Below, piece by piece: positions 3,231 through 64,000 of a DNA stretch of 64,000 nt. How positions within the stretch are numbered: the first letter of the stretch is position 1; the number at the start of each line of letters is the position of its first letter. The position numbers were made by a program, and so were the translations under genes. Source of the DNA: a virus; IMG/VR virus record IMGVR_UViG_3300032299_001015, positions 1-64,000 of that record. One strand, given 5' to 3'. The notes under the pieces are model-generated. The model did not search any database. It saw nothing but the letters and a program-made list of their open reading frames with translations, and had not been told where the DNA came from.

Positions 3231-3235
3231 TTAAA

Positions 3236-3750: not shown

Positions 3751-3755
3751 AAAGA

Positions 3756-3857: not shown

Positions 3858-3860
3858 AGT

Positions 3861-4220: not shown

Positions 4221-4344
4221 TTATTTTTCTCCACATCCAAAAACTAATATAATATGCATGGAAGTGTTTATGGCAAACTTCGGCTTTGAAGTTATCTCTT
4301 TCTCCCTGCCATTCTGCTGGGCTACCACAAAATTTACATTCCAT
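4213..4344 (-). CDS. Tiny zinc-binding protein (43 aa)
   Basis: 43 residues starting MECKFCGSPAEW, with a C-x2-C pair (C3, C6), then C24 and H25/H28/H30 in EVCHKHFH, enough ligands for one zinc site. Its end overlaps the next gene start by 8 bases (ATGGCTGA), and its start lies 7 bases after the methyltransferase stop. Translational coupling is likely. Function unknown. Confidence 0.6.
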   Translation of the reverse strand: MECKFCGSPAEWQGERDNFKAEVCHKHFHAYYISFWMWRKING

Positions 4345-36500: not shown

Positions 36501-39500
36501 AAATCTAACAGCGCCTGTTTTGTATCATCTAAGGCTGCATTAAGTGTTGCTAGCCTACTCGCATTTTCTATTGCTGCTCTTGCAAGAGCATCATCAAATT
36601 GTCCAGCAGCATTTTTTGCTTCTGTTAAGGGAACTCCTAGCGCAGTCATTTGAATCGCTAAGGCTTGAGTCTCTGCAGTAGAGTTTTGTAGTTGATCTAA
36701 AAGTTGATTAATTACTGGATCATCTAACTCGCCCATCATATTTTTAAATTCATCAAATGCCATCTCACGGGCAGACGTTCCCATTCCAAGAATATCACCC
36801 GCATCTTCATTTAGTGCTAAGTAAGATTCTCTAATTTTATCTAGATTTTGAGCAACTAGTTCTGGCGCAGTCTGAGATATTTCTATAGAACTCTTTAATG
36901 CTTGAACAAACTCTGGCCCACCAGCCAGAACATTCTTAAAATTACGACTAGCAACTTGAGGTGTACTTCTTCCATATAACCCAGGGTTATCAATTGCTTG
37001 CTGTCTCATTGCTTCACTTGCTGCTGTTTGTTGGCCTGCTACTGACTCTGGGCTAATATTGTCTACTGTTTGTTGATATGCCTCTTCTATTGTTTTTGCT
37101 TCTAATAAACCATTAGAGAATGCGCTAGCAAATGCAATTCCACCTTTATATCCAGCCTCTGCTGATATAGCCTTAATTGCATCCTGAGCCTCTTGTGCAC
37201 TCATTCCAGAAATAATCATCTTGGTGTATGCAGCACCAAGGTCGGCTGCTCCAACAGTAGTAACTGAAGTTTTCAATTTTTCAATAAGGCCTGCATAGTC
37301 TTCACTAACAGCCATACGCAATTCAGAGTTTATTGAGGATAGTTCTTTTGATGCTCCTGCTGCCTGGATGTTTTCCAGCGCACTTCCAAGACTGTCGATA
37401 GTCTTGCCAAAGAATTCCGCAGTCTTGGCTGGTTCAGCAAAGGCGGCATTTGCTTTTTCTTTTGCTTCATCAAGAGATTTCTTATACATGTATAGGCCAG
37501 CAGCAGTAATAACTAATGGAATTGCTACTGCTGCTACCGTTCCTGCTGCTGCGGCACCGCCTCCTGCTAAAGCCCCTCCAATTCCAGTCAAGGCCTTGCC
37601 TCCTCCACCAAGTAGACCTGCTGTTAGTGCGCCTCTTCCTGCTGCTGCTGCGGTGGCGCGTGCACCAAGGCCAGCCATGCCACCACCCATTTTTTTCACA
37701 CCGCCAACAATGCCCCCGCCAATACCTGTTCCTGAAAATGCCTGTAGTGCAAAAATAGCAGTAGTTAATGCTGTTGTAAACATCATTATTTTGGAAGATG
37801 CTTCGCTGGTAGCCCCACTAAACATCGTTACAGTGCTTGCTAGCATGGAGGCCCCCATAGCCGCATTCATTGCCCCTGCACCACGCATACCCCCAGACCC
37901 CCGTGCATCAGTTAAACTTTTTCCAGGGCCTACATTATTTAAATACGCTTCTCTTCTTTGTGCAGCAAGAGCCTTTCTTTGATCCATTGATATATCGCCA
38001 AATCTAGATGGTCTATTTGCTCCACTAGCAGCATAGGGAGACACCCCGCCCATAAGATATGATCCTGGGGTAAACATCGTTCCTTCTTGAACAGATCTTT
38101 TTACTATTGATTGATTTAATTGCTTCTCTGCTATAGCCTTAGATTCTGCTGCATTTGCAGCATTTCTTTCTGCTCTTTCTCTGATTGAAATAATATCTCT
38201 TAATTTCTTTTCCTCGGCGGCAAGTAGAGATTCTTCTTGGGCAAGTTTATCTAAAGCAGCAGCACGTTTTGTTCCTGCAACTGTTCCATCTTTATGTACC
38301 CATCTACCAGTTTCTAGATCCTTTGTCCAGTTTGCAAGAACAATGTTATGTTGTTTTTGTTGGACAACAATTCTTTGTTTTGTATCTGCAATAAGACCAG
38401 TTTGTTGAGTTTCCTTAATTAGGGCTTTTTCTAGAAGTTTCCTAGCATTTTCTTCTCTTTGATATACGGTTGCTGTAGATCTAGATTCTAATCCTGGGCC
38501 TATAGGTCCAGTTCTAACTTGCTTAGATGTAGCAATTCTAAGCCCTCTTTCTAGACCAATAATTGCGCCGTTACCAATATTCTTACCAGCCTTTTCTCCA
38601 ATTGAATCTGCCTTTTTTGATGGAGAAGAAGATTGAATTGCTCTAACAACTCCTTCGTCTAATGCTCTTTCAAGATCCACCGTTGACTTTCTCGCCCATG
38701 AATCTGCTGCGAGCCTTGAACCTTTATAAGTACCAGTTCCAGATGTTGAAACTCCTAAAGCCATTCTTCCTGGTCTTTCTTTTCCTTCATTAGTTCTTAA
38801 ATATTCAACAGTCCCATATTGTTTTGATAGTGCAAGAAGTCTTTGCGCGGCAATATCTCCCGCATTTGACAGTTTAACTAATTCTGCCTCTACTAGTCTG
38901 TAAAGTTGTGGATCATTAATTAATTCACCTTCTAGTCTAGCCATTGCAGAAGTTATACCTGTAATAGTTGGTTGAAGTTGATCAAATGACAGGCCAGTCG
39001 CTTTCATCATTAATGACCATCTTTCCCGATCTTTTAGTTCAGCAGCCAGAATGCTCTTTTTTACACCCTTACCCTCTACTTCTGTGTTTAATGCATCATT
39101 GGTTGCTTTACTAAGGCTAACGACTAGGTTATTAAATAGTTTTACTTCTGTAATTCCATCTGCTAGCATTTGTTGAAGTACTCTTCTTGCTCCAGACGTA
39201 GCAGAATCCATTGCACTTGTTATGGGTACAGTTACAGATCTAGTTAAATGTGCAAGCCTAGATGTTCCTCCACCATTTTCATACCCCTTTAATGTTCCAC
39301 GATTCATCTGCATGAGGACGGGAGCATATTTTTCTGTAGCCGCACGATTAACAATAAATTCACCAGGCTCAAGCATCGCGGGAATTTTATCTCCCCGACC
39401 TGAACCAGGAACAAATTCTGGTCTGGTAGAACCAGCCTGTCTTCTAATTGGAACGGCACCCCTAGGTGCTGGAGCCACTCCAGGAACAAATAATGCTGGG

Positions 39501-41404
39501 TTAGATGTACTTAATTTTCTTAAAGAAGTTTCATATGCAGACATTACCCCAACAAGTCTCTTCATTGCTGTTTCTTGGGTTGTAAAAGATGCTGTAAGAT
39601 TGTCTACTCCAAATTTTGCCGCCATAACCTCTGAGTTGAGAAGTTCAAATCTTTCAACTTTAAGGCCAGACATTCTAGCGCCAAGCCTAGTAACCATCAT
39701 TCCAAATTTAAGGCCATTGGCAATTAAATTACCAAATAGACCAACCAACATAATAATTGGTCCTGCCAAAGCAGCAATAGCAACACCTAACTTGGCAAAG
39801 TTTTTAATTGGCCCTGGTAAATCTTGGAAGAATCCTGAAAATTTTTGAATGCCTTCGCCAATAAATGAAAGTATTGGAATCAATGTTTCTGTGAGGGCCT
39901 GACCAATAGGCATGATTGCATTCTTTAAATCTTCCAAGGTTCTTTGGAATTTAACTGCGGTTGATTCTGTGAGAGTTTTAATTTCTTGATTTGCTACTGC
40001 CGCCAAATCAGTAGAACTTTTTGCCGCTAATTCTATTACTGATTGTGTCTGAGATCCTGTTCTTCCAATATTATCAAATAGAGCAGAAACTCTGGCAAAC
40101 TGATACTTACCAAAAATTTGCTCAATTACTCTAGATCTTCCAAATTCATCCAGACCATCTAGAGCATTCTTCATAGCATAAATTGTGGGCATTAACTGGC
40201 CCTTATTTGCATCAACAATTCCTACTAAATCTATACCAAACTTCTTAGCCACCTCACTAGCCTGCTTTGTTGGATTAATCAGGGAGGCGAGGCCAGATTT
40301 TAATGCATTCGCTGCTTCTGCGGCTGGGATGCCACCCTCTCGCATAGCCACAAGTAGAGTTGCAAGATCTTTAACATCTCCACCTAAACTTCTAACTACT
40401 GGACCAACTTTAGGAATAGCAGTTGATAAATCTTGAAGAGTTGCAGATGTTTGGTTTTCAACAGCGTTAAGGAAGTTAATTGACTCTGCTAATTCATCTG
40501 TATTAAGTCTGAATGCTGACTGCAGGGCAAGAGTTGCTTTCATTGCTTCTTGTCTATCTACTTCACCAAGGACCGCCAATCTAGTGGTTTGCTGGACAGA
40601 GTTAATCAGATCTTCGCCTTCTGCTCCAGTTGCAGCAATATCTGCAGCAAGAGCGGCAGTATCTTTAGCAGCGATTCCATAGGTACGAGATATTTCGTAA
40701 GCCAATTGTTGAATTTGTTCTCTCATGCGAGTAGTTGACTCACTAATTGCGCCACCAAGATCAGAACCATAAACCTTTTGGAACCTTGTCAATTCTTTGT
40801 CAAGGTCTCTGAACTGTTTAGAGGCTAAGGCTGTAAACATCGCCAAAGGAATGCTAAATCCAACCATCAGTTGGCGACCAGCCCACTGAGTATTTTTACC
40901 CCAGTTAAGCATAGATGTGGCACCGTTGTCAATTAGTTGATTGAAAATAGAAAATTTTTGAGCAGCCATTGCTGCAGAGTTTCCAGTAGCAGCAATAGAT
41001 GTAGGGGTAAGCATCATCATCTGCCCACCGCCCATTGGCACAGAAACAGACTGCTGGTATCTAACTTGCTGTTGAGCAAGTTGCTTCATTAAACTATTTT
41101 GCTTTGTATATCCTGCAACTGCTTCACGGAATGACTCTCGCATAGTCAGGCGGTTGGCAGCAATTTGCTTACCAAAATTTTCTACGGCATTATGAGCCTG
41201 TATTGTTTTAGCAGTAAATCCACCAATTTGTCCAACACCAGTAGCAAATGTTGCTGCTAGGCTTCTTTGCGCTGAAAGAGCAGATTTATCTAAGGTGTTA
41301 AAGGCAGCACTTAAAGCGCTAATCTGACCAGTAAGTGCTTTAATTTGAGCCTGGGCAGGAGAAAGGTTCGCGTTATATGTAATAACTGAATTAATATTAG
41401 CCAA
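33578..41404 (-). CDS. Tape measure protein with amidase and lysozyme-like domains
   Basis: 2,608 residues, starting at a TTG (GGAGG 9 bases upstream). N-terminal third: phage tape measure helices and a TP901-type core (AADIAATGAEGEDLI...). Hydrophobic segments near 538-570, 1178-1225 and 1282-1305. Coiled coils near 1651-1718 and 1775-1840. Amidase-like domain about 2041-2228 (GIMMHHTAG, QIEVES, INHKDWAAASG). Lysozyme-like domain about 2318-2441 (AWSIAMRESGGRN...GIFQLNKPS). A Gly-rich motif ending IPAMLSNGEYVV appears at three places (about 668, 1985 and 2460). It sets tail length and should breach peptidoglycan during injection. Confidence 0.92.
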   Translation of the reverse strand: MANINSVITYNANLSPAQAQIKALTGQISALSAAFNTLDKSALSAQRSLAATFATGVGQIGGFTAKTIQAHNAVENFGKQIAANRLTMRESFREAVAGYTKQNSLMKQLAQQQVRYQQSVSVPMGGGQMMMLTPTSIAATGNSAAMAAQKFSIFNQLIDNGATSMLNWGKNTQWAGRQLMVGFSIPLAMFTALASKQFRDLDKELTRFQKVYGSDLGGAISESTTRMREQIQQLAYEISRTYGIAAKDTAALAADIAATGAEGEDLINSVQQTTRLAVLGEVDRQEAMKATLALQSAFRLNTDELAESINFLNAVENQTSATLQDLSTAIPKVGPVVRSLGGDVKDLATLLVAMREGGIPAAEAANALKSGLASLINPTKQASEVAKKFGIDLVGIVDANKGQLMPTIYAMKNALDGLDEFGRSRVIEQIFGKYQFARVSALFDNIGRTGSQTQSVIELAAKSSTDLAAVANQEIKTLTESTAVKFQRTLEDLKNAIMPIGQALTETLIPILSFIGEGIQKFSGFFQDLPGPIKNFAKLGVAIAALAGPIIMLVGLFGNLIANGLKFGMMVTRLGARMSGLKVERFELLNSEVMAAKFGVDNLTASFTTQETAMKRLVGVMSAYETSLRKLSTSNPALFVPGVAPAPRGAVPIRRQAGSTRPEFVPGSGRGDKIPAMLEPGEFIVNRAATEKYAPVLMQMNRGTLKGYENGGGTSRLAHLTRSVTVPITSAMDSATSGARRVLQQMLADGITEVKLFNNLVVSLSKATNDALNTEVEGKGVKKSILAAELKDRERWSLMMKATGLSFDQLQPTITGITSAMARLEGELINDPQLYRLVEAELVKLSNAGDIAAQRLLALSKQYGTVEYLRTNEGKERPGRMALGVSTSGTGTYKGSRLAADSWARKSTVDLERALDEGVVRAIQSSSPSKKADSIGEKAGKNIGNGAIIGLERGLRIATSKQVRTGPIGPGLESRSTATVYQREENARKLLEKALIKETQQTGLIADTKQRIVVQQKQHNIVLANWTKDLETGRWVHKDGTVAGTKRAAALDKLAQEESLLAAEEKKLRDIISIRERAERNAANAAESKAIAEKQLNQSIVKRSVQEGTMFTPGSYLMGGVSPYAASGANRPSRFGDISMDQRKALAAQRREAYLNNVGPGKSLTDARGSGGMRGAGAMNAAMGASMLASTVTMFSGATSEASSKIMMFTTALTTAIFALQAFSGTGIGGGIVGGVKKMGGGMAGLGARATAAAAGRGALTAGLLGGGGKALTGIGGALAGGGAAAAGTVAAVAIPLVITAAGLYMYKKSLDEAKEKANAAFAEPAKTAEFFGKTIDSLGSALENIQAAGASKELSSINSELRMAVSEDYAGLIEKLKTSVTTVGAADLGAAYTKMIISGMSAQEAQDAIKAISAEAGYKGGIAFASAFSNGLLEAKTIEEAYQQTVDNISPESVAGQQTAASEAMRQQAIDNPGLYGRSTPQVASRNFKNVLAGGPEFVQALKSSIEISQTAPELVAQNLDKIRESYLALNEDAGDILGMGTSAREMAFDEFKNMMGELDDPVINQLLDQLQNSTAETQALAIQMTALGVPLTEAKNAAGQFDDALARAAIENASRLATLNAALDDTKQALLDFADSSPITIAMDDISESVDKMQDKIESYAKSREKEKESIQENFELEQKAREDSLEAMQDEMDIKKESFDEEMDQLDEKSDKIEKSSDAYIKSLQKNQKADSFYAQQRNTAFGALQKLASGDVFGFLQDREQMSQDAQQFSYDEQISGIEERRDLELEAIDETRSEKQKEQEEYEKMMQDRMDSIQDLMDKESEMHETNMKNYDDETEKHNEELERRLENRSSKNQEAKDIIDGIKNGEIESYKEVTKVFGEQLAKRYADLVKNQIASLDAVLKQQVAAGDIERLDAEKQLVQMYNDLFGAAYFGGTPTSNSGYGGVGSYEDLRGKLGLSSFLPPIPKKNLPNVAYGGYISGPGGPKSDVIPAMLSNGEYVVQASSVSKYGKDMMDTINAGKFADGGPVELKKSLDKWIPKNRLSYYSSWDQYGSWPGGKPSGIMMHHTAGVGPGVLEWMARNPEAGKPVVQAMVGRDATAHILAYGGTGWGAGAGGTEGSYAAEIFNNKEYAGLKEDLKNLGGASNTLWQIEVESQGLKKDFTAGMFDTIARMSAAIKEYAGWPSFDGKIINHKDWAAASGPNRPNGQRGDTLYPLGLYQSNADRIWEQGGGETSETNRGETSETNNGGSGASSVQITPSIAAPKKGLFGILSMAGTPVSDKQSNSNNNGSTNEPTGNIQFSNIPDGYTVEDANRTLGHIRAGGWPTNLQRLAWSIAMRESGGRNIYDTGDYGIFQLNKPSYGSQPWWISDDKILNDPVYNSSVAYKNVSQSGKNFLPWAMRVDNNGNYSWDWSYYNPRPTWADATETRTAAFWNSWKYKASGGIMKLSAGGGAVSGPGGPRSDMIPAMLSNGEYVVKASSVAKYGKGFMDQVNAGQFGMGGLATTAPRMVSPAKYAGGGFVGSMSTATPTFGVPQVETINPSSMNANIANSYGGSNSSSVRNSSKVNIVINGAGGKSSNAIANKVISMINQANGRRNHSRSAG

Positions 41405-51859: not shown

Positions 51860-52240
51860 TCAATTCCAGTCAATATCTGATCCAGACTTAGCATATGATT
51901 TTGATGATAGTAATAGGTCTTTACCAATATGTTGAGCCTTTACCTCAAAAGAATATTTTCTTTCCCCGCTATTTGTATCTATCCATGAAGTTTCTTTAAT
52001 AACTCCATTAACAATTACTTGCTCCCCGCGATTAAATTCACCAGCAATATTTTCTGCCAGCCGATCCCAAGCAGTAATATTCCAGCCAGATGTATCATGG
52101 TCTTCCCACTCACCAAAGGCATTCTTACGGCGGTCATTAGTAATTAGTCTAAATCTTGCTACTGACGTTCCACTCGGCAGAGTCTTAAACTCTACATCAT
52201 TTGCCACTCTACCAATTAAAGTAATATTAGGGTTAGACAT
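51860..52240 (-). CDS. ssb: Single-stranded DNA-binding protein (OB fold)
   Basis: 126 residues. Bacterial SSB pattern: NPNITLIGRVANDVEFKTLPSGTSVARFRLITNDR, WNITAWDRLAENIAGEFNRGEQVIVNGVIKETSW, and a C-terminal tail ending GSDIDWN (acidic, but not the canonical DDDIPF). It is a second, different ssDNA-binding protein besides the Zn-type one at 15726-16379. It lies among decoration and head genes, far from the replication block. Start overlaps the glycosyltransferase stop. Confidence 0.9.
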   Translation of the reverse strand: MSNPNITLIGRVANDVEFKTLPSGTSVARFRLITNDRRKNAFGEWEDHDTSGWNITAWDRLAENIAGEFNRGEQVIVNGVIKETSWIDTNSGERKYSFEVKAQHIGKDLLLSSKSYAKSGSDIDWN

Positions 52241-53202
52241 TATTCTCCTTCCGTTAAAATTTCAAAAAGTCTATTCCATTCTTTTGCTCTACGCTCCCAG
52301 TTATAATACTTATTGAAGTAGTCTGACTGTTCGCGTATTAATTCTTGATTATCTTTTGTCCAGTAATTATCTATTTGTTCGTTAAGAAGTTCTGCATATG
52401 TATTAGCGATTTGCTCTTCATTTGGTTTAATTATACACATTTTTGCATATGCTGCACCAGTTTCTGGTAAAGCCCCGACATCAGTAGTAACTAAGTTACA
52501 TCCTGCTGCGCCTGCCTCAATCATTGACAAGCAGGCGGTTTCTTCAAAAATGCTAGGGTAGGCAAATATGTGAGCATCTTGTACTGCTTTATGAATTTCA
52601 TTATTTTCGGCGTACCCAATGTAATTGACACCTTTTGTCTCACGGGCGCGATTGAATAGATCTTCATATACCCCATAATAATGTGCCTCGTAGCCTGATC
52701 CATATACAGAAGTTGATGAATATACATCTAACTCAATATCATCGCGGTCAAGTTGCTCCATAACATCTAGCAAAATGCTAAGACCCCTAAATGGAGTTGA
52801 TGTGTAAATTAACTTTAACTTGCCACCTTTTGATTTTGGTTTAAATTCTATTGGTTCTATGGCATTACGAATAACATATGCATTATGAAGCGGAACCTGA
52901 AAGAGATACCTAAATTTCTCTAGTTGCCAATGTGACACATAAACTGTTGCATCAATAGACTTCATAAAAGCATTATCCTTCATTGGAGCAAGAGACTCAT
53001 CTGAATAGTTTAGATGCTGCCATAAAATATTCTTTTTAGTAAATCTAACTTTAGATGGGTCTGGAGTTGCAACTAATAAATTTAAATTATCATACTCTGA
53101 AAATTTAGAATGTTTTATCATTCCGTCTTTTAGTAATTCCGTCCCGCCTCGTGCAGGCTTTACGTTGCTGTCATTAGAAATTCTTTGTAACCAATCAGCC
53201 AT
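52240..53202 (-). CDS. GT4-like glycosyltransferase
   Basis: 320 residues from the ATG at 53202 (MADWLQRIS), which has GGAG 6 bases upstream and avoids a long overlap; an ATG one codon earlier is equally possible. GT-B C-terminal signature: KLKLIYTSTPFRGLSILLD, NYIGYAENNEIHKAVQDAHIFAYPSIFEETACLSMIEAGAAGCNLVTTDVGALPET, including the E-x7-E donor motif. Transfers a nucleotide-activated sugar. Encoded in the decoration cassette. Confidence 0.88.
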   Translation of the reverse strand: MADWLQRISNDSNVKPARGGTELLKDGMIKHSKFSEYDNLNLLVATPDPSKVRFTKKNILWQHLNYSDESLAPMKDNAFMKSIDATVYVSHWQLEKFRYLFQVPLHNAYVIRNAIEPIEFKPKSKGGKLKLIYTSTPFRGLSILLDVMEQLDRDDIELDVYSSTSVYGSGYEAHYYGVYEDLFNRARETKGVNYIGYAENNEIHKAVQDAHIFAYPSIFEETACLSMIEAGAAGCNLVTTDVGALPETGAAYAKMCIIKPNEEQIANTYAELLNEQIDNYWTKDNQELIREQSDYFNKYYNWERRAKEWNRLFEILTEGE

Positions 53203-53224
53203 CATCTTCTCCAAATTTTTGCAC

Positions 53225-53944
53225 TCACAGGTAACTCTTCTTACTCCAGAATTGACTCTTATATGATCTAACAATTTTAGACTTTAACTTAAAACCATTT
53301 TTTTTATTGGCATCCTCATCAAACTCTACCTGTGATGATCTCCAGTCCTCTCTTTTGAAAGGAATCATTTGACATATGGGAGTCCCTGCTTCAAGAACAA
53401 AAATCTCTTCTTTGATTGTGTTAAGAAGTTGGAAGGGAAATTCGACTCCTAGTTCATAGGAGTCTGTATCTACCACCCCAGAAAAAGTTCTGAATGGAAG
53501 GTCGTGTCTATTAAGTGGGTGAGTGAATAAACAACTATAGCCCTTGGGGGTTATTGCCCTCCAGCCAGGACTCCATTTAAGTAAATCCATTCCGCCACCT
53601 ACTGGAGCAGGCAGCCCAGGAGCCTGATCTGGACCGTGAGAGCCTATAAAATTAACATTGGTTGCCCACCGCACATTAATTCCTTTTCCTGGATGATTTC
53701 TAAATTCTAGGTCGAATGGCAGAACAAACATATATCCAGATGTGAGTGCATCAAGGAACGGGGAGCATCCCTTAAGAGTAAGATTGCTTACCGCTACTCC
53801 GTTTTTTGATAACCCAGTTATTTTTTCGCCGTCCATATGAACAGGCATCTTTTTATACCAGCCTGGGATAGACTGTGCTGCTGGCTGCGGCCTTTCAAAC
53901 AGAAGTTCTGCCTCATGACTGAATGGCTCAAATTTTATCTTCAT
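53225..53944 (-). CDS. DUF6065-like protein
   Basis: 239 residues from the ATG at 53944, which overlaps the previous stop (ATGA). Conserved blocks PGWYKKMPVHMDGEK, CSPFLDALTSGYMFVLPFDLEF, PGWRAITPKGYSCLFTHPLNRHDLPFRTFSGVVDTDSYELGVEFPFQLL and GTPICQMIPFKREDW match a family known to me as DUF6065, found in phage and polysaccharide gene clusters. Beta-rich, cupin-like appearance. Function unknown; linkage to glycosyltransferases and sulfotransferase suggests glycan work. Confidence 0.72.
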   Translation of the reverse strand: MKIKFEPFSHEAELLFERPQPAAQSIPGWYKKMPVHMDGEKITGLSKNGVAVSNLTLKGCSPFLDALTSGYMFVLPFDLEFRNHPGKGINVRWATNVNFIGSHGPDQAPGLPAPVGGGMDLLKWSPGWRAITPKGYSCLFTHPLNRHDLPFRTFSGVVDTDSYELGVEFPFQLLNTIKEEIFVLEAGTPICQMIPFKREDWRSSQVEFDEDANKKNGFKLKSKIVRSYKSQFWSKKSYL

Positions 53945-54612
53945 GGCTTTACCCAATTCAACTTAAATGTCTTTTGATGTAGAACTCTTACAGATGGGTC
54001 TACCCAAATGTCAAATCCTGACTTGATCGCTTTTGTACACCATGAAAGGTCTTCTCCAATAAGAAGGAAATCTTCAGTTGTTTCCCCTGTTTCTTCATCT
54101 ACACTAGGAACGCTTTCTGGTCCAAACCAGGGTCTGGGCATATTCTCAAATACCCCTGATTTTACTGCAAGGAATCCAAATCCACATCCTGCTACTTTAA
54201 AAGGCTTATGATACTGATCAAGAAGTTCTTCTGGCATCATACCGCCGCGAGGTTGTTGATAAATCGGAATGTGTCTGTCTTCCATGAGATAGCATCCAGA
54301 AATAATTTTCTTATCAGACTTATATAGTCTAAAAACGTCGGCGGGACTCCATGCAATATCTGAATCAATCCACATAATCATGTCATAGGTAAATTCACCG
54401 CTACATGGCTGAGTCATTTTTACATTATTTGTATCGTATCCACCAATGGTTGACTCTCTAGCCATGGCAACAAGTGACCCCCCCTGACTAAGAAAATTCC
54501 AACTTACCCCCTCTTGATTCAGGGCATTAGTAGTAATAAGCAGACTTCTTAGATAGTCTGGAGTAAAAGAATTTGCTGGAGTAGCAAATACTATATTAAA
54601 ATGCGGTTTCAT
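53941..54612 (-). CDS. GT-A glycosyltransferase, paralogue 2
   Basis: 223 residues. GT-A fold: MKPHFNIVFATPANSFTPDYLRSLL start, the DxD motif in MIMWIDSDIAW (D83, D85), then VAGCGFGFLAVKSGVFENMPRPWFG and a C-terminal EDLSWCTKAIKSGFDIWVDPSVRVLHQKT. The DxD binds the metal and nucleotide sugar. The gene just upstream (54613-55272) is a clear paralogue. Likely sugar-chain transferase acting in a series. Confidence 0.85.
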   Translation of the reverse strand: MKPHFNIVFATPANSFTPDYLRSLLITTNALNQEGVSWNFLSQGGSLVAMARESTIGGYDTNNVKMTQPCSGEFTYDMIMWIDSDIAWSPADVFRLYKSDKKIISGCYLMEDRHIPIYQQPRGGMMPEELLDQYHKPFKVAGCGFGFLAVKSGVFENMPRPWFGPESVPSVDEETGETTEDFLLIGEDLSWCTKAIKSGFDIWVDPSVRVLHQKTFKLNWVKP

Positions 54613-55272
54613 TTATCCCCTTATAGCGATCTTCTTATGATGACATACTTTTATGCTGGGGTCAAGATAAATTTTATATCCTGCTTCCCCCGCTTTTTTG
54701 CACCAGGAAAAATCTTCTCCCCAAGGTATATACATCTCTTTAGTTTTATCTTCATTCTCTATTTTTTGAAATACTACGTCGAACCATGGGCGAGGAATAT
54801 TTTCAAATACCCCAGATTTCATTGAAACAAATCCGAATCCTACTGCAAAGACCTCAAACGGGTATTCTTTTCTTTTTAATAAGTCGTGGTCAAAATAAAT
54901 ATCGTCTTCTTTGAAACTAAAGAGCGGTACGTTTTCTTCATTATAGTAGACTCCAGAAACTACATCGTATGACGATTCGTACAACTTCATAAATTGATCT
55001 GGTTCCCAAGAAATATCTGAGTCTATCCAAACTATTTTGTCATACGTTACCTGACTGTTTACTGGTTCTGTGGCAAAAGCATGAAGAAAACGTGATCCCA
55101 TTATTGTTGCTTCCCGCGCTGCATTTACTTGAGAGGAATACTCATTTAGATATAAATAAGATATGCCTATTTTTTCTAAATGGGAAATAGTTGCAACAAG
55201 ACTTCTTACATATTCTGCCTCCATCATTCTTCCAGGAGTGCAAATTAATACATTATAGTGGGGCTTCAACAT
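54613..55272 (-). CDS. GT-A glycosyltransferase, paralogue 1
   Basis: 219 residues from the ATG at 55272; a TTG at 55269 gives MKPHYNV, matching the paralogue's MKPHFNI start. DxD motif WIDSDISW (D84, D86), VGFGFVSMKSGVFENIPRPWFDVVF and EDFSWCKKAGEAGYKIYLDPSIKVCHHKK are shared with 53941-54612, so the two arose by tandem duplication. Overlaps the sulfotransferase end by 20 bases. Confidence 0.85.
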   Translation of the reverse strand: MLKPHYNVLICTPGRMMEAEYVRSLVATISHLEKIGISYLYLNEYSSQVNAAREATIMGSRFLHAFATEPVNSQVTYDKIVWIDSDISWEPDQFMKLYESSYDVVSGVYYNEENVPLFSFKEDDIYFDHDLLKRKEYPFEVFAVGFGFVSMKSGVFENIPRPWFDVVFQKIENEDKTKEMYIPWGEDFSWCKKAGEAGYKIYLDPSIKVCHHKKIAIRG

Positions 55273-56083
55273 TCCTCCAAAACTCTAATCCATTATATTT
55301 ATTAAGAATATAAGGTGAAAGATATTCACCAATATTTATTCTACGATGCTCAATTGATTGGCGAACGTTGTGTAACCCTTCAATACCGTAGATTCTATCA
55401 TCTTCTGGGGTTATATTAACTATTTTATTATAGTTATGATCAAAGTATTCTAGGCCAAGGAAGTCATAGATGCCCTTGATAGTTTCATCTGTCCTGCCAA
55501 CCAAATTGTCATACTCAACAATGTGAAAATATTGTCTATTTTCTTCTAGCATCGCATAGGCAATTCCATACAAACACTCATCAATAAGTCCTTTTGGACG
55601 CATCAAATGGTCACATCTAATTTCATCAGGATGGCGGTAGTAATAAAACTCCTGCCTTGCTTCTATTTCCTGATCAATAAATGAAGTCTTCTGTGGATTT
55701 TGATTAATCATATAGATAAAAGAGGCAAGAATTTCATTTATGTTTCTCACCGTCAAAATTACCTTAGGGTCATAGGGGAGATTTCTTAGTAGTGTTCCAA
55801 AGTTTTCTTTTGTTGACCATGATCGTGACTTATCAATAATATTAGGCTTATTTATATCTGAATAATAATTTTCTAGTACCCCATAAACCGTGGGAGAAAT
55901 GACATGAGGTTTTGGGTATGCATTATATTGTTCAGACGCTAAAATACTACGTTCAAGATTAACCATCATCCCACACATGGGGGAGTTTGGTCCTGAATAA
56001 ATTTCTGGGTTTTGATTTAAAATTGATGATAAAAGTGTGCTTCCAGACCTTGGAAGGCCGGAAAGAAAATAAAACTTACTCAA
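55253..56083 (-). CDS. Sulfotransferase (PAPS-dependent)
   Basis: 276 residues. 5'-phosphosulfate loop SGLPRSGSTLLSS (8-20) and 3'-phosphate-binding segment VILTVRNINEILASF (108-122) are the two PAPS-binding signatures of the sulfotransferase family. It would move sulfate from PAPS to a hydroxyl on a sugar or peptide. It sits between the giant repeat proteins and the glycosyltransferases, so sulfation of a phage glycan or the repeat proteins is a natural hypothesis. Confidence 0.85.
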   Translation of the reverse strand: MSKFYFLSGLPRSGSTLLSSILNQNPEIYSGPNSPMCGMMVNLERSILASEQYNAYPKPHVISPTVYGVLENYYSDINKPNIIDKSRSWSTKENFGTLLRNLPYDPKVILTVRNINEILASFIYMINQNPQKTSFIDQEIEARQEFYYYRHPDEIRCDHLMRPKGLIDECLYGIAYAMLEENRQYFHIVEYDNLVGRTDETIKGIYDFLGLEYFDHNYNKIVNITPEDDRIYGIEGLHNVRQSIEHRRINIGEYLSPYILNKYNGLEFWRNVEAPL

Positions 56084-56096: not shown

Positions 56097-59000
56097 CTAC
56101 TCTAGGCCAATTATATCATTTACAGTTGATGCAGATACAGGAATTGTGACGGTAGTCCATATAGTTAAATCAGTAGACGAATATACAGCATTAGTTCCTT
56201 GAATTTGATAGGTGCTGCCAAATTTTGCCATTTTTTGTAGGGAATCATTAATTAAAGAATAGGGCAAAGAAGTTCTTAATTTTCCTGTGTTTCCTCCTGC
56301 AATCCATAGGCCGTTGCCGTAGGCTACGGAGCGGATTAAGGTAGTTCCAAAGTTAGAAGTTTGGGTTGTCCAGGTCACGCCATCGGTGGAGGTGCGAAGT
56401 TGCCCTTGCTCTGCTGATGCTATCCATATGCCATTGCCATAGGCTATGGAGTGGATGGTGGTGTTGCCAAAGTTAGAGTTTTGGGTGGTCCAGGCAACAC
56501 CATTAGTGGAGGTTCTTAGTTGTCCTGCAACGCCTCCTGCTATCCATAGGCCGTTGCCGTAGGCTACGGAGCGGATGCTGGTGCTACCAAAGTTAGAGGT
56601 TTGGGTTGCCCAGGTTATGGTGTCGGTGGACGTACGGATTTGGCCTGTGTATCCGCCTGCTATCCATAGACCGTTGCCATAGGCTACGGATTGGATTTGG
56701 GTGTTGCCAAAGTTAGAAACTACTGATACCCAGGTTGTATTATCTGTAGATGTTGAAATATTTCCTAAAGTAGTTACTATCACCCACCTATTACTATTAT
56801 GTGACACAGATGTAATACCGTTTGTAGTTAATCTATCTTCTCCGTCCCAGGTTACGCCATCGGGGGAGGTACGGAGTTGACCTGTGTAGCCTCCTGCAAT
56901 CCATAGGCCGTTGCCGTAGGCGACGGAGAGGATCATGCTGTTGCCAAAGTTAGAAGTTCGGGTAGTCCAGGTCACGCCATCGGTGGAGGTGCGGATTTGG
57001 CCCGTTAATCCGCCTGCTATCCATAAGCCGTTGCCATAGGCTACGGAGCGGATGTTGGTGTTGCCAAAGTTAGAAGTTCGGGTTGTCCAGGTAGTGCCAT
57101 TGGTGGAGGTACGGAGGGTGCCTGTGTATCCTCCTGCAATCCATAGGCCGTTGCCATAGGCTACGGAGAGGATAGCGGTACCGCCAAAGTTAGAAGTTCG
57201 GGTAGTCCAGGTCACGCCATCGGTGGAGGTTCTCATTTGGCTATCGCTGCCTGACACTATCCATAGGCCGTTGCCATAGGCTACGGAGAAAATGGTGTTG
57301 GTAGAGCCAAAGTTAGAGGTTCGGCTAGTCCAGGTAGTGCCATCGGTGGAGGTTCTCAATTGGCCTCCGCTACTTCCTGCTATCCATAGGCCGTTGCCAT
57401 AGGCTACGGAGTAGATAGGATTGCTCCCAATAAAGCCAGAAGTTTGGGTAGTCCAAGTAACGCCATTGGTGGAAGTGCGGATTTGGGCACCTTCCCCTAC
57501 TGCTATCCATAGGCCGTTGCCATAGGCTACGGAGCGGATGTTGGTAGCGCCAAAGTTGGAGGTTTGGGTAGTCCAGGTTGTGCCATTAGTGGAGGTGCGG
57601 ATTTGGCCTGTTAATCCGCCTGCTATCCATAGACCGTTGCCATAGGCTACGGAGTAGATTGCGGTGGTACCAAAGTTAGATGCTATTCCACTAGTTCCAA
57701 TATTAAAGTTTACTGTATTCCAAGTAATGGTGTCTGTGGAAGTTCTACCCTGACCACTATACGCACCTGCTATCCATATGCCATTGCCATAGGCTACGGA
57801 GTAGACGCTGACGCTGCCAAAGTTAGAGTTTTGCGTAGTCCAGGTTACGGTATCGGTGGAGGTGCGGATTTGACCTGCACTTCCTACTGCTACCCATAGA
57901 CCGTTGTTATATCCTACGGAGAATATTACACTATTTCCAAAGTTAGAGGTTTGCTCTTTCCAAGTAGCACCTTGAATTCCCCCAGATGAAGAACTAGCGA
58001 ATACTTGAGTGACCCATGTACTTCCATCTGTTGACCGCCAAAATGTTCCAGAATTTACAACGGCAAAAGCGGTGGAAGCAGTAGAAAACATTCCATTTAC
58101 CGCCGTTGGTCCAGATACTGTTGTCCAAGTTTCTGCATTTGTTGAACTTAAAGTAGATGATGCTGATGAAAAGGCGTAAAAAGAATTATTGAAAGAATGT
58201 AATTTATAGTTATTTGGCAATATTGATGAGTTTTCAGAGGTGCGGAGTTGTCCGGTGCTGCCTCCTGCTATCCATAGGCCGTTGCCATAGGCTACGGAGT
58301 TGATGTTAGTGGCACCAAAGTTGGAGGTTTGGGTAGTCCAGGTTACGCCATCGGTGGAGGTACGGATTTGTCCTGTGTATCCGCCTGCTATCCATAGGCC
58401 GTTGCCATAGGCGACGGAGAGGATGTTAGTGCTGCCAAAGTTGGAGGTTTGGGTGGTCCAGGTTGTGCCATTGGTGGACGTACGGATTTGTCCTGCGTAG
58501 CCCCCTGCAATCCATAAACCGTTGCCGTAGGCTACGGAGGCGATGGTGGTGTTTAAGTTAGAGGTTTGCGTGGTCCAAGTGACGCCATTGGTGGAGGTTC
58601 TTAATTGGCCTGCGTTACCTCCTGCTATCCATAAGCCGCTGCTATAGGCTACGGAGCGGATGATATTGAAACCAAAGTTAGAGGTTTGTGTTGTCCAGGT
58701 TACGCCATTGGTGGAGGTGCGGATTTCTCCGTCGCCTCCTCCTGCAATCCATAGGCCGTTGCCATAGGCTACGGAAAAGATTCCGAGGATGTTGGTGATA
58801 CTAAAGTTAGAGGTTTGGGTAGTCCAGGTTACGCCATCGGTGGAGGTTCTCAATTGGCCGCCGGAGGCTCCTGCAATCCATAGGCCATTGCCATAGGCTA
58901 AGGAGCGGATGGTGGTGTTGCCAAAGTTGGAGGTTTGGGTTGTCCAGGTGACGCCATTGGTAGAGGTTCTCAGTTGTCCTGAAAGACCTCCTGCAATCCA

Positions 59001-59312
59001 TAGGCCATTGCCATAGGCTACGGAGTTGATGGTGGTGCTACCAAAGTTAGAGTTTTGGGTGGTCCAGGAAACTCCTAATCTATTATATATAGTATTAAAT
59101 GTTCCTAAAGATTGTGTTGCTTGAAGTGATCTTAGAACTACTCCATTACTCAATACAGCCGACCAAATGTTATTAGCATAAGCAATAGAAGAAATACTTC
59201 CACTAGTAACGGCGGGGGAAATAAAGGTAGTGCTATTGGTAGCATCTGGATCAAGGTTTATTGTTGCACTTGACCAAGTAATGCTATTTGTAGAATATCT
59301 AATTTCTGTCAT
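56097..59312 (-). CDS. Giant BNR-like repeat protein B (1,071 aa)
   Basis: Starts at the ATG 59312, with GGTGA 5 bases upstream. After a weak copy there are 21 tandem copies of a 40-residue unit with core SVAYGNGLWIAGG, a TGQIRTST element and a D/N-G-x-TW BNR-like Asp-box, the 17th degenerate. A 100-residue spacer with decayed copies follows the 7th. This pattern predicts beta-propeller blades, four strands each. Likely a trimeric virion fibre or receptor-binding protein; no enzymatic site is seen. Confidence 0.8.
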   Translation of the reverse strand: MTEIRYSTNSITWSSATINLDPDATNSTTFISPAVTSGSISSIAYANNIWSAVLSNGVVLRSLQATQSLGTFNTIYNRLGVSWTTQNSNFGSTTINSVAYGNGLWIAGGLSGQLRTSTNGVTWTTQTSNFGNTTIRSLAYGNGLWIAGASGGQLRTSTDGVTWTTQTSNFSITNILGIFSVAYGNGLWIAGGGDGEIRTSTNGVTWTTQTSNFGFNIIRSVAYSSGLWIAGGNAGQLRTSTNGVTWTTQTSNLNTTIASVAYGNGLWIAGGYAGQIRTSTNGTTWTTQTSNFGSTNILSVAYGNGLWIAGGYTGQIRTSTDGVTWTTQTSNFGATNINSVAYGNGLWIAGGSTGQLRTSENSSILPNNYKLHSFNNSFYAFSSASSTLSSTNAETWTTVSGPTAVNGMFSTASTAFAVVNSGTFWRSTDGSTWVTQVFASSSSGGIQGATWKEQTSNFGNSVIFSVGYNNGLWVAVGSAGQIRTSTDTVTWTTQNSNFGSVSVYSVAYGNGIWIAGAYSGQGRTSTDTITWNTVNFNIGTSGIASNFGTTAIYSVAYGNGLWIAGGLTGQIRTSTNGTTWTTQTSNFGATNIRSVAYGNGLWIAVGEGAQIRTSTNGVTWTTQTSGFIGSNPIYSVAYGNGLWIAGSSGGQLRTSTDGTTWTSRTSNFGSTNTIFSVAYGNGLWIVSGSDSQMRTSTDGVTWTTRTSNFGGTAILSVAYGNGLWIAGGYTGTLRTSTNGTTWTTRTSNFGNTNIRSVAYGNGLWIAGGLTGQIRTSTDGVTWTTRTSNFGNSMILSVAYGNGLWIAGGYTGQLRTSPDGVTWDGEDRLTTNGITSVSHNSNRWVIVTTLGNISTSTDNTTWVSVVSNFGNTQIQSVAYGNGLWIAGGYTGQIRTSTDTITWATQTSNFGSTSIRSVAYGNGLWIAGGVAGQLRTSTNGVAWTTQNSNFGNTTIHSIAYGNGIWIASAEQGQLRTSTDGVTWTTQTSNFGTTLIRSVAYGNGLWIAGGNTGKLRTSLPYSLINDSLQKMAKFGSTYQIQGTNAVYSSTDLTIWTTVTIPVSASTVNDIIGLE
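56271..59052 (-). repeat. 120-bp tandem repeat array in protein B
   Basis: Tandem units of about 120 bp (40 codons), nearly identical in DNA as well as protein, containing the conserved string CCGTTGCCATAGGCTACGGA (plus-strand reading). Approximate bounds, from the last to the first full unit. Interrupted around 57950-58250 by non-repetitive sequence. Confidence 0.8.
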
Positions 59313-59313
59313 T

Positions 59314-61407
59314 TTAATCACCGCCTACAAAATATGAAATAAAAGAACCTGCTGATGCAGAGGTTCTCAGTTGGCCTGCGTTACCTACTGCTATCCATAG
59401 ACCGTTGCCATAGGCTACGGAGTTGATGTTAGTGGCACCAAAGTTAGAGGTTTGGGTGGTCCAGGTGACGCCATTGGTGGAGGTGCGAAGTTGCCCTTGC
59501 TCTGCTCCTGCCATCCATAGACCGTTGCCATAGGCTACGGAGCGGATGGTGGTGTTGCCAAAGTTGGAGGTTTGGGTAGTCCAGGTTACGCCATCGGTGG
59601 AGGTACGGATTTGTCCTGTGTATCCGCCTGCTATCCATAGGCTATTGCCATAGGCTACGGATCGGATGTTGGTGCTACCAAAGTTGGAGGTTTGGGTGGT
59701 CCAGGTTACGCCATTGGTGGAAGTGCGGATTTCTGTGTATCCGCCTGCTATCCATAGGCTATTGCCATAGGCTACGGAGCGGATGGTGGTGTTGCCAAAG
59801 TTGGAAGTTTGGGTGGTCCAGGTTGTGCCATTGGTGGACGTACGTAGTTGGCCTGTGTTTCCTCCTGCTATCCATAGGCCGTTGCCATAGGCTACGGAGC
59901 GGATGGGGGTAGCGCCAAAGTTAGAGGTTTGTGTGGTCCAGGTAACGCCATTGGTAGAGGTGCGTATTTCTCCTGTGTTACCTACTGCTATCCATAGACC
60001 ATTGCCATAGGCTATGGAGAATATGTTGGTAGCGCCAAAGTTAGAGGTTTGGGTTGCCCAGGTTATGGTGTCGGTAGAGGTACGGATTTGTCCGGCGTAG
60101 CCTCCTGCAATCCATAGGCCATTGCCATAGGCTACGGGGAAGATATTGGTATTGCCAAAGTTAGAGTTTTGAGTAACCCAAAAAACTCCAGCAGGTTGAG
60201 TATCACCTCCACCATATTCTACAACTTTAATATTTCCTGTCATTCCTGTATTTACTGAAGTCCAAGATGTTAAATTGGTGGAGGAGAATAATTTTCCATC
60301 GTCCGCCGCCACAAATGTAGTAGATGCTGATGGGATATATTCTATGTCGTTTATTGGGGAATATGCTGATGTATATGTCTGAGGTGAAGTTATAATTTGG
60401 CCTGCGAATCCTCCTGCAATCCATAGGCCGTTGCCATAGGCGACGGAGAGGATACGGGTCGCCCCAAAGTTAGAGTTTCGGGTTGTCCAGGTAACGCCAT
60501 CGGTGGAGGTACGGATTTGGCCTGTGTATCCGCCTGCTATCCATAGGCCGTTGCCATAGGCGACGGAGAGGATGGTAGTGCTGCCAAAGTTGGAGGTTTG
60601 GGTGGTCCAGGTGACGCCATTGGTGGACGTGCGGATTTGTCCAGACCGTCCTCCTGCTATCCATAGGCCGTTGCCATAGGCTACGGAGTTTATGTTGGTG
60701 CTACCAAAGTTGGAGGTTTGGGTGGTCCAGGTAGTGCCATCGGTGGAGGTACGGAGTTGTCCGTATTCGCCTCCTGCAATCCATAGGCCGTTGCCATAGG
60801 CGACGGAGAGAATGGCGCTTTCGAAGTTGGAGGTTCGCGTGGTCCAGGTAGTGCCATCGGTGGAAGTGCGGATAGCGATGGACAAAAATTCTGGGGTGCC
60901 TCCTCCTGCAATCCATAGGCCGTTGCCATAGGCTACGGAGTTGATTTGGGTGTTGCCAAAGTTAGACGTTCGGGTTGTCCAGGTAGTGCCATCGGTGGAG
61001 GTGCGGATTTGTCCTGTGTATCCGCCTGCTATCCATAGGCCGTTGCCATAGGCTATGGAGTTGATGGTGGTGTTGCCAAAGTTAGACGTTCGGGTTGTCC
61101 AGGTAGTGCCATTGGTGGACGTACGTAGTTGGCCTGTGGTTCCTCCTGCTATCCATAGGCCGTTGCCATAGGCTACTGAGCGGATGATGGTGGTACCAAA
61201 ATTAGAGTTTTGTGTGGTCCAGGTAACGCCAGTATTTGCGGGGTCTGGAGTAGTTCCCTGTCCAGTATTAAATCCAGATATTTGAGCGGTAGTGTTAGTT
61301 GAATCAATAGAATAAAGAAGGCCAGATGAGGTGCCAAAGAGGAACTGTCTTACCCCCGCCGATATTTTTTTAGAACTAGAAAGAATACCTACCCAAATAC
61401 CACTCAT
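59314..61407 (-). CDS. Giant BNR-like repeat protein A (697 aa)
   Basis: 697 residues. After a 70-residue head (SSSKKISAGVRQFLFGTSSG) come 7 copies of the 40-residue unit, a 75-residue spacer with a partly decayed copy, then 7 further copies; 14 in all. Units share core SVAYGNGLWIAGG and the Asp-box-like TSTDGTTWTT. The DNA is nearly identical to that of the neighbouring gene, so one arose from the other. Start ATG overlaps the preceding stop (ATGA). Likely adsorption or decoration protein. Confidence 0.8.
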   Translation of the reverse strand: MSGIWVGILSSSKKISAGVRQFLFGTSSGLLYSIDSTNTTAQISGFNTGQGTTPDPANTGVTWTTQNSNFGTTIIRSVAYGNGLWIAGGTTGQLRTSTNGTTWTTRTSNFGNTTINSIAYGNGLWIAGGYTGQIRTSTDGTTWTTRTSNFGNTQINSVAYGNGLWIAGGGTPEFLSIAIRTSTDGTTWTTRTSNFESAILSVAYGNGLWIAGGEYGQLRTSTDGTTWTTQTSNFGSTNINSVAYGNGLWIAGGRSGQIRTSTNGVTWTTQTSNFGSTTILSVAYGNGLWIAGGYTGQIRTSTDGVTWTTRNSNFGATRILSVAYGNGLWIAGGFAGQIITSPQTYTSAYSPINDIEYIPSASTTFVAADDGKLFSSTNLTSWTSVNTGMTGNIKVVEYGGGDTQPAGVFWVTQNSNFGNTNIFPVAYGNGLWIAGGYAGQIRTSTDTITWATQTSNFGATNIFSIAYGNGLWIAVGNTGEIRTSTNGVTWTTQTSNFGATPIRSVAYGNGLWIAGGNTGQLRTSTNGTTWTTQTSNFGNTTIRSVAYGNSLWIAGGYTEIRTSTNGVTWTTQTSNFGSTNIRSVAYGNSLWIAGGYTGQIRTSTDGVTWTTQTSNFGNTTIRSVAYGNGLWMAGAEQGQLRTSTNGVTWTTQTSNFGATNINSVAYGNGLWIAVGNAGQLRTSASAGSFISYFVGGD
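59365..61213 (-). repeat. 120-bp tandem repeat array in protein A
   Basis: Exact 120-bp spacing is visible between the units that start at 60421, 60541, 60661 and 60781. Near-identity of units implies recent expansion or gene conversion. A non-repetitive spacer lies at about 60170-60400. Confidence 0.8.
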
Positions 61408-64000
61408 ACTGTTAAATCACCTATAGCAACCCAAGTATCTGTTCCACGTTTTATTAACGTAGCAGCAGACCATTGACCAACAAGTTTTGTCGCACCTCCG
61501 CTAGAGTTTAGGGTGACACCAGAAACATATGATGCTGTTACTTGTCCTGCACCAGTCTGAAGTATATCAATTTTAGTTCCTGTTGGAAATGCTTGAGTTG
61601 AATTAAGTGGAATAACTAATGTTATTGGGCTAGCGTTATTTAATTCAACCAAGTCTCCAGCATCACTTAATACTAATGAATAAGATGTTCCAGACTGAGC
61701 ATTAGTAATAATATTCATTGCAGTAGTTATAGAGATCTGACCATTTTGTAAATCGGTTAGTGTAGCGCTTGCCGCACCAGTTACAATTCCTGTTAAATTA
61801 ATTCCAATAATAGGATCGGGTTTATTTGTAACTCCATCCCAATTAATACTAGAGGCACTTGTTGAAAAACTAGTATTTGTTACAATAGATATTTGTCCAT
61901 TTGCTAAGTCAGTAAGCGTTGCTGAAGCAGCGCCAGTAGTATTTCCAGTAAGTGAAACCCCTATTACTGGATCTGGTATATCTGTGACTCTGCTCCAATT
62001 TATAGAAGATGCAGTATTAGCATTTCCTAAAAGAGCGCCTGTAAATGTTTGAGCAGATGCATTACCACTTATAATTGCTGATCCAATTACATGCAGTTCA
62101 GTAACGGGACTAAAAGTACCTATACCAACCCTTTTACTGCTAGTAAGATTTAATACTGGAGTTGGACTTCCTACTGAATCTCCTGTATAAAAAGACATAT
62201 TAGATGGAATACCACTAGCAGAACTATTTGCAACTGATTCTACAGTTATATATGAAGAATTTTTTACTACTCCATTAATGTCAGGTCCTTGGAAAATAAT
62301 TGTTCCAAGATCCATTCCAATTAGGGCTGCAGATGCACCAGGAGATTTAGAAAATATTAAATACCCTGAATTATCTAAAGCATTAGTATTTCTAATAACA
62401 AGTTGTGGGCTAAATTCAGTTGCCTGAGATAAAATTAAATTACCGCTTAATGTTCCTAAACTTGTTAAACTTGAGTTAACAATAGATGAGGGAAGAGTTG
62501 TTCCTGTAATTAATGAAGAATTAATGGATGATGCTGTGTTAGCATGATTAGCCGTACTTCCAATAGACATATATAATGTAGAGGCAGTGGTTCTAGTTAG
62601 ATATGCCTGAGATGCAGATACAGGAATATATCCAGAAACTATTGCAGCAGATGATGTGACTCTAATATATGCTGATGCTGCATCTGATTGTTTAAGATAT
62701 GTAGCGCTTGCTCCAGCGGCATTTTGATAGTATAATCCATGTTGACCATCAAGCATATCTGCGTTAAAGTTAGTGACGGTTACACTTGAAGAAACTTCTA
62801 ATGCTGCTATCTGTAGTACCCCAAATTCTACAGATGGATCTGAATAGTTAATAGTATTATTGACTGCTGCTGGCCCTTTTGAAAGAAGTTTCCATTTATT
62901 TTGTGAAGCATCTCTTGCAAAAGATGTATGATAATGATTTGCAGAAGATGTTGTACCATCGCCATAAGATCCAACTATACCAATATCTACAGCATCTGTT
63001 GTATATTGTTCATGTGCCAGTTGAATAAGTGAGTCTGTAAGTGCTAAGTTTGTTGAAGTAATTGTTGTAGCACTTCCTGTAATAACTAAGTTATTAATAT
63101 TAACGGTTCCATGGAACGTTGTTGTTCCCGTTCTTTCTTGGGTTGCACTAGAAGTATTAAGAAAATATGATGCATGTTGACCATCAAGTAAATCGGCATC
63201 TATTCCTGATCCCGCTCCGTCAACCTCTGTAATAGCCGTTGCAAGATTTTGATTAAACCATACACTAGATGACGCATTGTATGAAATAATGTCATTGTTT
63301 GTAACACTATTTATTAAAACGTCATGTAGTTCACCTAACTCATAACCGTTCTGAACATTAACAAAAAGTTGACCATTTCCAGCATTTGCTCTTTCTACAA
63401 CACCAATAAAAACTGTATGTTTTGGAGCAGAAGGTTTAACGCTAGTAAATTTACCAGCAGAAGCAGATAACCATAAAGTATCTCCAGGTGAATATGCACT
63501 TAAGTTAAGTTTATCGACAACGCCAAATATAGTAACAAAACCTTGACCTCCTGTTGTTATTGCCTCTGCTACCACCCCTAAACTTTTAGCAGATGTGGAA
63601 TCTGATGTGTTAATTGCTTTTTTAACAGATGCTCTATCTCCTGACGCTCCAAATAAATAAACAACATCACCTTTAACAAGAGGGGAACCTTCAGCATTTG
63701 TTACATATGCATGAACATGCTGTCCGATATGAGCAGTAATGTTACCGCCGATTAAACCAATTTCGGGAGTTCCAAAAGAAGAATTCCATTGGAATCTACC
63801 TACGCCTAGAGGTACTGTTCCAGAAAGATCAAGGTCTATACCGCCAATAGAAAATATTCCAGAAGCACTTCTAGAAACTAATGTGTTAGGTATATTTAGA
63901 GGAGTTCCAGAGGCTGATCCACCTCCGCGACCGTCACCAACTAGAACCCATGTAGACGCTGAAGACCATGCATATAGGCTACTTGCACTAATCCATAGTT
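61404..64000 (-). CDS. Partial tail fibre/adsorption protein, 5' end missing
   Basis: The frame is open from 61404 to the right edge (at least 864 residues), so the GTG at 63575 is internal rather than the start. Gly/Ser/Thr/Asn-rich beta-helical sequence with fibre repeats DADLLDGQHASYFL and NADMLDGQHGLYYQ, ANTASSINWSRVT, LTGNTTGAASATLTDLANGQI and a final LVLSDAGDLVELNNASPIT. The DLLDGQH motif recurs in phage fibres. It precedes repeat protein A with an ATGA overlap. Likely the main fibre shaft. Confidence 0.85.
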   Translation of the reverse strand, partial: LWISASSLYAWSSASTWVLVGDGRGGGSASGTPLNIPNTLVSRSASGIFSIGGIDLDLSGTVPLGVGRFQWNSSFGTPEIGLIGGNITAHIGQHVHAYVTNAEGSPLVKGDVVYLFGASGDRASVKKAINTSDSTSAKSLGVVAEAITTGGQGFVTIFGVVDKLNLSAYSPGDTLWLSASAGKFTSVKPSAPKHTVFIGVVERANAGNGQLFVNVQNGYELGELHDVLINSVTNNDIISYNASSSVWFNQNLATAITEVDGAGSGIDADLLDGQHASYFLNTSSATQERTGTTTFHGTVNINNLVITGSATTITSTNLALTDSLIQLAHEQYTTDAVDIGIVGSYGDGTTSSANHYHTSFARDASQNKWKLLSKGPAAVNNTINYSDPSVEFGVLQIAALEVSSSVTVTNFNADMLDGQHGLYYQNAAGASATYLKQSDAASAYIRVTSSAAIVSGYIPVSASQAYLTRTTASTLYMSIGSTANHANTASSINSSLITGTTLPSSIVNSSLTSLGTLSGNLILSQATEFSPQLVIRNTNALDNSGYLIFSKSPGASAALIGMDLGTIIFQGPDINGVVKNSSYITVESVANSSASGIPSNMSFYTGDSVGSPTPVLNLTSSKRVGIGTFSPVTELHVIGSAIISGNASAQTFTGALLGNANTASSINWSRVTDIPDPVIGVSLTGNTTGAASATLTDLANGQISIVTNTSFSTSASSINWDGVTNKPDPIIGINLTGIVTGAASATLTDLQNGQISITTAMNIITNAQSGTSYSLVLSDAGDLVELNNASPITLVIPLNSTQAFPTGTKIDILQTGAGQVTASYVSGVTLNSSGGATKLVGQWSAATLIKRGTDTWVAIGDLTV

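Follow-up and report, generated by a model that had tools for sequence, protein, structure and literature searches.

Here, we report on two adjoining genes, B and A, of the window, i.e., the first 64 kb (positions 1 to 64,000) of the 84.4-kb virus record IMGVR_UViG_3300032299_001015, whose products we consider, with moderate confidence, to be a host beta-propeller carrying exchangeable propeller cassettes as a tail-fibre adhesin. B (61407–59314, 697 amino acids (aa)) and A (59321–56097, 1074 aa) both lie on the minus strand, and their open reading frames (ORFs) share an 8-base overlap; the record, from a tailed phage, also carries terminase, portal, prohead protease, a 2608-aa tape measure, and minor tail proteins. 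Briefly, B and A would be assembled jointly as one tail-fibre-associated adhesin, in which a degenerate seven-bladed host propeller, supplied in two pieces meeting at the b-c hairpin of its blade 3, would accommodate other propellers in its loops: P1, P3, and P4 behind blades 1, 4, and 6, respectively, P2 within blade 3, and P5 within P4. The plugged-in propellers would be cassettes, some with linkers of their own, that recombination inserts, loses or replaces as whole domains, so that the blade number stays seven. Five d-a and b-c loop positions per unit vary from blade to blade and from cassette to cassette, and each head would thereby have a distinct binding face.

The tandem period is 120 bp, i.e., units of about 40 residues. 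A strict parse in the strand register d-a-b-c gives 35 units, or five times seven, distributed as 7 + 7 in B and 7 + 14 in A. An earlier note on this DNA had counted 7 and 7 copies in its protein A, which is the 697-aa protein, here gene B, and 7, 7 and 7 in the other; its total of 35 stands, whereas in the 1074-aa protein no spacer separates the last two sevens. Two features stand out within this 14-unit run, a loop longer by 9 residues in unit A_532 and the divergent unit A_823 (blade score 29.1, 0/500 shuffles as high); both are in line with one set of seven lying within another. At the nucleotide (nt) level the units share a mean identity of 79%, several of them up to 96%, and about 39% of synonymous sites differ, so the description of the DNA as nearly identical had to be given up. 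Because the differences between units amount to 0.39 per synonymous site versus 0.14 per nonsynonymous site, the uniform unit sequence, judged by these rates, is maintained by selection, with the exception of five loop positions. A recent amplification of the units is ruled out by the same high synonymous divergence.

Variability is concentrated at unit positions 12, 14, 16, 30, and 31, with values of 2.2–3.0 bits against 1.5 or less at all others. The first three fall in the d-a loop and the start of strand a, and the last two in the b-c loop. The earlier note had placed four or five variable positions next to the GG and RTST elements; there are indeed five, and two lie beside GG, although the other three follow SNFG and none is beside RTST. 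In a propeller, the d-a and b-c loops share one face, and therefore the five variable positions would make one surface. Such variation, confined to five positions per unit on one face, would also be in line with a diversity-generating retroelement acting on them; yet no reverse transcriptase (PF00078) match was found in the 84.4-kb record, which is possibly incomplete, synonymous sites also vary widely, and relatives differ by whole cassettes, so that we regard this mechanism as extremely improbable.

P1 (B 58–346) was modeled with AlphaFold2 (AF2) from 44 sequences, the other 43 being seven-unit sets from the window and its relatives. It was predicted as a closed seven-bladed beta-propeller made of seven d-a-b-c sets, with a predicted local distance difference test (pLDDT) value of 90.8 and a predicted template modeling (pTM) score of 0.89. 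In a Foldseek search against the PDB, this model matched beta-TrCP (TM 0.79) and YCF48 (TM 0.76), both seven-bladed, with E values of 1e-14 to 1e-11. The model of whole B contains two such domains, and its best PDB matches are double propellers. The seven-unit sets are thus almost certainly seven-bladed propellers according to these models, as the earlier note had proposed, and a beta-helix, which it had named as the contrary outcome, is ruled out by the predicted fold. Among Pfam families, DUF6242 (PF19755) matched A with 39.2 bits and B with 36.0 bits, above its gathering cut-off of 29 bits; the whole-protein scores for Kelch_6 (PF13964) of 43.3 and 51.1 also exceed the cut-off (25.3), only as sums of short pieces, the best stretch covering profile positions 3–23 of 50. 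PSII_BNR (YCF48) was absent among the window-protein matches up to E 1, despite the similar fold.

The number seven is kept in close relatives, the other point on which the earlier note had staked its proposal. In the set of the same type, which comprises the window, L009, L010, L013, L020, L026, L027, L029, and L069 with near-duplicates excluded, 7 or 14 units were counted in 22 of the 23 complete arrays; only the last array of L020 departs from this, and its five units may be an assembly artefact. L019, with an L013-type N-terminus, is not clear-cut: its arrays have 4, 5, 5, and 20 units at the strict score cut-off and 7, 5+1, 7, and 21 at the lenient one. Over all families together, seven is by far the most frequent array length (45 arrays). 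Please note that the profile misses many blades in the distant families L053, L054, L061, and L087, which were excluded from this argument. No cellular relatives turned up in the scan of genome contigs. In L010 (ORF 1–4281, aa 174–737), an unbroken 14-unit run stands where L013 holds the 7-unit P3, perhaps a second propeller within or beside a propeller.

How the arrays differ between relatives indicates the unit of exchange. L009, the closest relative, is 97–99% identical to the window on both flanks of the arrays. Within them, the spacers or frame keep 92–98% nt identity (81% over the C-terminal segment holding the P6 site) and P4 91–99%, whereas P2, P3, and P5 share only 68–91%. L009 does not carry P1, and its host sequence is uninterrupted at that site; conversely, an additional seven-unit propeller, P6, lies near the C-terminus in L009, at a place where the window is uninterrupted. 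P1, P6, and a cassette of L069/L070 have linkers in common, of the PD..NTG kind before and the TSPQ kind after. In a separate lineage, the main difference between L013 and L014 is P3 (83%, versus 97–100% elsewhere), that between L013 and L027 is P2 (77%, versus 95–100% before P2), and L029 is without P1. It is very probable that whole cassettes turn over between relatives. The suggestion of the earlier note that recombination acts among 120-bp units was not borne out: the exchanges span whole seven-unit cassettes, and single units were not seen exchanged. Since the replaced blocks match whole propellers, single-unit shuffling as the main process is ruled out.

The window and L009 are single assemblies, and several units are up to 96% identical, so that the cassette differences could in principle be artefacts of assembling repeats from metagenomes. 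The arrays assemble reproducibly, however, because an identical L014 haplotype over 15 kb is found in four metagenome records (L014, L015, L016, and L018); L013 and L017, also separate records, differ by one base. The exchanged blocks moreover stop at domain borders, and P1 and P6 have clean empty sites, all of which makes an artefact very improbable. We also observed further sharply divergent blocks upstream of the propeller gene in L013/L014 (1–500, 1000–2000, and 4000–5000), phages that are otherwise nearly identical.

Inside the 14-unit run of A, the block that differs from L009 covers residues 547–822, i.e., seven a-b-c sets (P5), and the flanking units (452, 492, and the d strand of 532, then 823–982), which are 91–99% identical to L009, add up to seven (P4). 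We therefore read P5, with good confidence from this pattern of identity, as nested in P4. The d strands of 532 and 823 are indistinguishable as the inner one, and the entry point in P4 would therefore be a d-a or a c-d loop.

The spacers seemingly form a propeller as well. Without the seven-unit sets, the frame of the window is 333 residues long and that of L013 336, and the two align end to end with 26% identity. The joined spacers matched the propeller profile in hhalign with a probability of 97.8 and an E value of 1.1e-12 over 243 columns. Single blades were then scored with a wider profile against 500 shuffles per blade: in the window, host blades 2–6 beat 500 of 500 and blade 7 beats 493 of 500, and in L013, host blades 1, 2, 3, and 7 are above the shuffles. 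It is fairly likely from these alignments that the spacers form a seven-bladed host propeller, whose closure would bring the last strand of A together with the first strands of B. The spacers that the earlier note had seen after the seventh copies do exist outside the 14-unit run; they are mostly divergent blades, not plain linkers. Its picture of stacked propellers is not supported as a full account, and the evidence favours propellers inserted into a host propeller and, for P5, into P4.

Several observations weigh against this architecture. Host blade 1 of the window does not beat its shuffles and is unrecognizable as a blade alone, nor are blades 4–6 of L013 recognizable singly, and the cut points for joining the spacers were our choice. 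In the AF2 model of whole B, which holds only about 2.5 of the seven host blades, the spacers have pLDDT values below 30. The nesting of P5 comes from a single comparison, window versus L009, and array counts are less regular in L019 and, at the sensitivity of the profile, in the distant families. One might instead see five ordinary tandem propellers like beads on a string, connected by decayed or divergent blades that have no fold in common, and a 14-unit run that is simply two abutting propellers. The unfolded spacers of B would fit this, tandem double propellers are common among the Foldseek matches, and L012 and L021 hold two propellers with a linker of about 20 residues. Set against it are the spacers themselves, which at 92–98% nt identity are better conserved than most propellers, can be aligned over their whole length with distant relatives, and resemble successive blades; the presence or absence of P1 and P6 is clean, as for insertions into a continuous host; and the exchanged block of the 14-unit run is units 3 to 9, neither 1–7 nor 8–14. 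We consider the tandem arrangement unlikely, at perhaps one chance among a few, and keep the host propeller with inserted cassettes, whose parts in the window are as follows.

61404..63998, minus strand: tail-fibre-like gene C, running beyond the window; N-terminus MASIDKDFKVKNGLIVG in L044.
61228..61407, minus strand: N-terminus of B and putative strands b-c-d of host blade 1 (B 1–60), from the end-to-end alignment with the L013 host frame.
60379..61227, minus strand: propeller P1, 7 units (B 61–343), from the unit parse, the AF2 model, and the alignment with the empty site of L009.
60187..60378, minus strand: putative host blade 2 and strand a of host blade 3 (B 344–407); blade 2 score 10.2, 0/500 shuffles; 92% nt identity to L009.
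59359..60186, minus strand: propeller P2, 7 units (B 408–683), from the unit parse, between putative strands a and b of host blade 3; 78–91% nt identity per unit to L009, adjoining frame 92–98%.
59314..59358, minus strand: putative strand b of host blade 3 at the end of B (SFISYFVGGD, stop TAA).
59073..59321, minus strand: putative strands c-d of host blade 3 and host blade 4 (A 1–83); junction GGTGATTAAAATGACA, the same in L009.
58230..59072, minus strand: propeller P3, 7 units (A 84–364), from the unit parse; 79–85% nt identity to L009.
57969..58229, minus strand: putative host blades 5 and 6 (A 365–451); scores 13.9 and 16.6, 0/500 shuffles each; 97% nt identity to L009.
57684..57968, minus strand: first part of P4, i.e., units A_452, A_492, and strand d of A_532 with the 9-residue longer loop; 96–99% nt identity to L009.
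56856..57683, minus strand: propeller P5, 7 units (A 547–822), probably inside P4; 68–86% nt identity to L009, flanked by P4 units at 91–99%.
56262..56855, minus strand: second part of P4, i.e., divergent unit A_823 and units A_862 to A_982; 91–98% nt identity to L009.
56097..56261, minus strand: putative host blade 7 and closing strand a of blade 1 (A 1021–1074); blade 7 score matched by 7/500 shuffles; L009 carries P6 here.

The border between the two genes runs through host blade 3: B ends after its strand b, and A begins with strand c (MTEIRYSTNSITW), the stop of B and the ATG of A reading together GATTAAAATG. Blade 3 rejoined across B and A scores 20.3, with 0/500 shuffles as high. The split is common to the window and L009, and in L013-type relatives the frame is in one chain (L013, 1736 aa). 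A sequencing error behind it is unlikely, as the separate record L009 has the same junction, although a single event in a common ancestor could explain both. Judging from the junction, the split may be a gene fission with coupled reinitiation, or a frameshifting site.

B and A lie directly downstream of gene C, whose stop shares 4 bases with the start of B. The surrounding cluster is one of tail-fibre-like genes, and those upstream gave PHROG matches of the tail or structural kind. Both C and the gene next upstream of it start with like segments of the DFKVKNGL type (KDFKVKNGL and KDFVVKNGV). In L012 and L021, propellers come after a DKNFKVKNGL-type N-terminus, as in C, and in L030 one such propeller terminates a chain matching minor tail and long tail fibre families. 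For propellers of phi11, PRD1, and phiKZ, receptor binding is established or suspected (PMC4901313). Because of these tail contexts and the known propeller receptor binders, a multi-headed adhesin is the best explanation, and an adhesin role of B and A, with predicted receptor binding, is probable. It is plausible, as far as the sequences go, that receptor specificity is shuffled via the propellers. In L054 (8509–11226) and L061 (853–2652), like propellers interrupt a glycine-rich tail-tip-like domain (weak Gly_rich_2, PF21722, match in L054), and cassettes of this type thus also seem to fit into an unrelated scaffold. Elsewhere, the tape measure protein (33578–41404) has an N-acetylmuramoyl-L-alanine amidase domain (PF01510), and outside the window, just upstream of the tail-fibre-like genes of L044 (6110–8044), is a 644-aa protein resembling, by eye, ribonucleotide reductase.

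The genes directly downstream of A (52240–56083) encode a member of the sulfotransferase family (PF13469), two phrog_1574 proteins that match glycosyltransferases weakly, a phrog_7084 protein, and a phrog_2170 glycosyltransferase; they are about 97% identical in L009 and possibly make up a glycan modification set beside the adhesin. Many BNR propellers are glycosidases, and propeller folds reportedly occur among phage depolymerases; with such sulfotransferase and glycosyltransferase-like genes adjoining, the propellers might be carbohydrate-processing enzymes, BNR sialidase-like or depolymerases, in place of adhesins. We consider this improbable, as the window proteins have no enzyme family match, the blades are nearly interchangeable, and the most variable positions lie on the face expected to hold a conserved active site.

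Known systems resemble this one in part. Highly repetitive propellers amplified from single blades occur in all domains of life and viruses (PMC9218822, PMC6805158) and are alike in their near-uniform blades; the units of the window are not fresh copies, however (synonymous differences of about 0.39 per site), and whole propellers appear inserted in another, while a word search of PMC9218822 gave no mention of insertion, nesting, or phages. The YCF48/Hcf136-like propeller (PDB 2xbg, 5ojr) has the same fold (TM about 0.76) at 16–19% identity; those of the window are without the PSII_BNR match, in a phage, multiplied and seemingly nested. Propellers also occur in the known or putative receptor-binding proteins Gp45 of Staphylococcus aureus phage phi11, P2 of PRD1, and gp131 of phiKZ; those of phi11 and PRD1 have five blades and that of phiKZ has seven, and they are described as single and without a host propeller (PMC4901313). 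Matches in sequence and fold include DUF6242 (PF19755), a BNR protein of S-CBWM1, a cyanophage "baseplate wedge initiator," and a "photosynthesis system II assembly factor" of the Actinomycetia phage DSL-LC01, the last a single 290-aa protein beside collagen-like genes; these DUF6242/BNR-repeat phage proteins are 28–36% identical to the window. Literature searches on nested propellers in phages yielded no counterpart. In multi-propeller proteins of the DDB1/CPSF160 type, a propeller is inserted within other propellers; these are cellular scaffolds with fixed domains and no cassette turnover.

We lean slightly toward a recursive architecture, i.e., a propeller with propeller sockets, one of them holding another propeller, split over two chains, as the multi-socket adhesin of a phage family whose heads are swapped, added or lost by recombination. 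The natural before-and-after pairs at hand (P1, P6, and L029) lend themselves to the study of insertion tolerance. If the architecture is true, it would be a rare instance of a fold inserted repeatedly into its own kind, what is exchanged in this phage adhesin would be an entire propeller, seated in one of the several sockets that a conserved frame offers, and one phage protein could bear five or more distinct binding heads, renewed singly.

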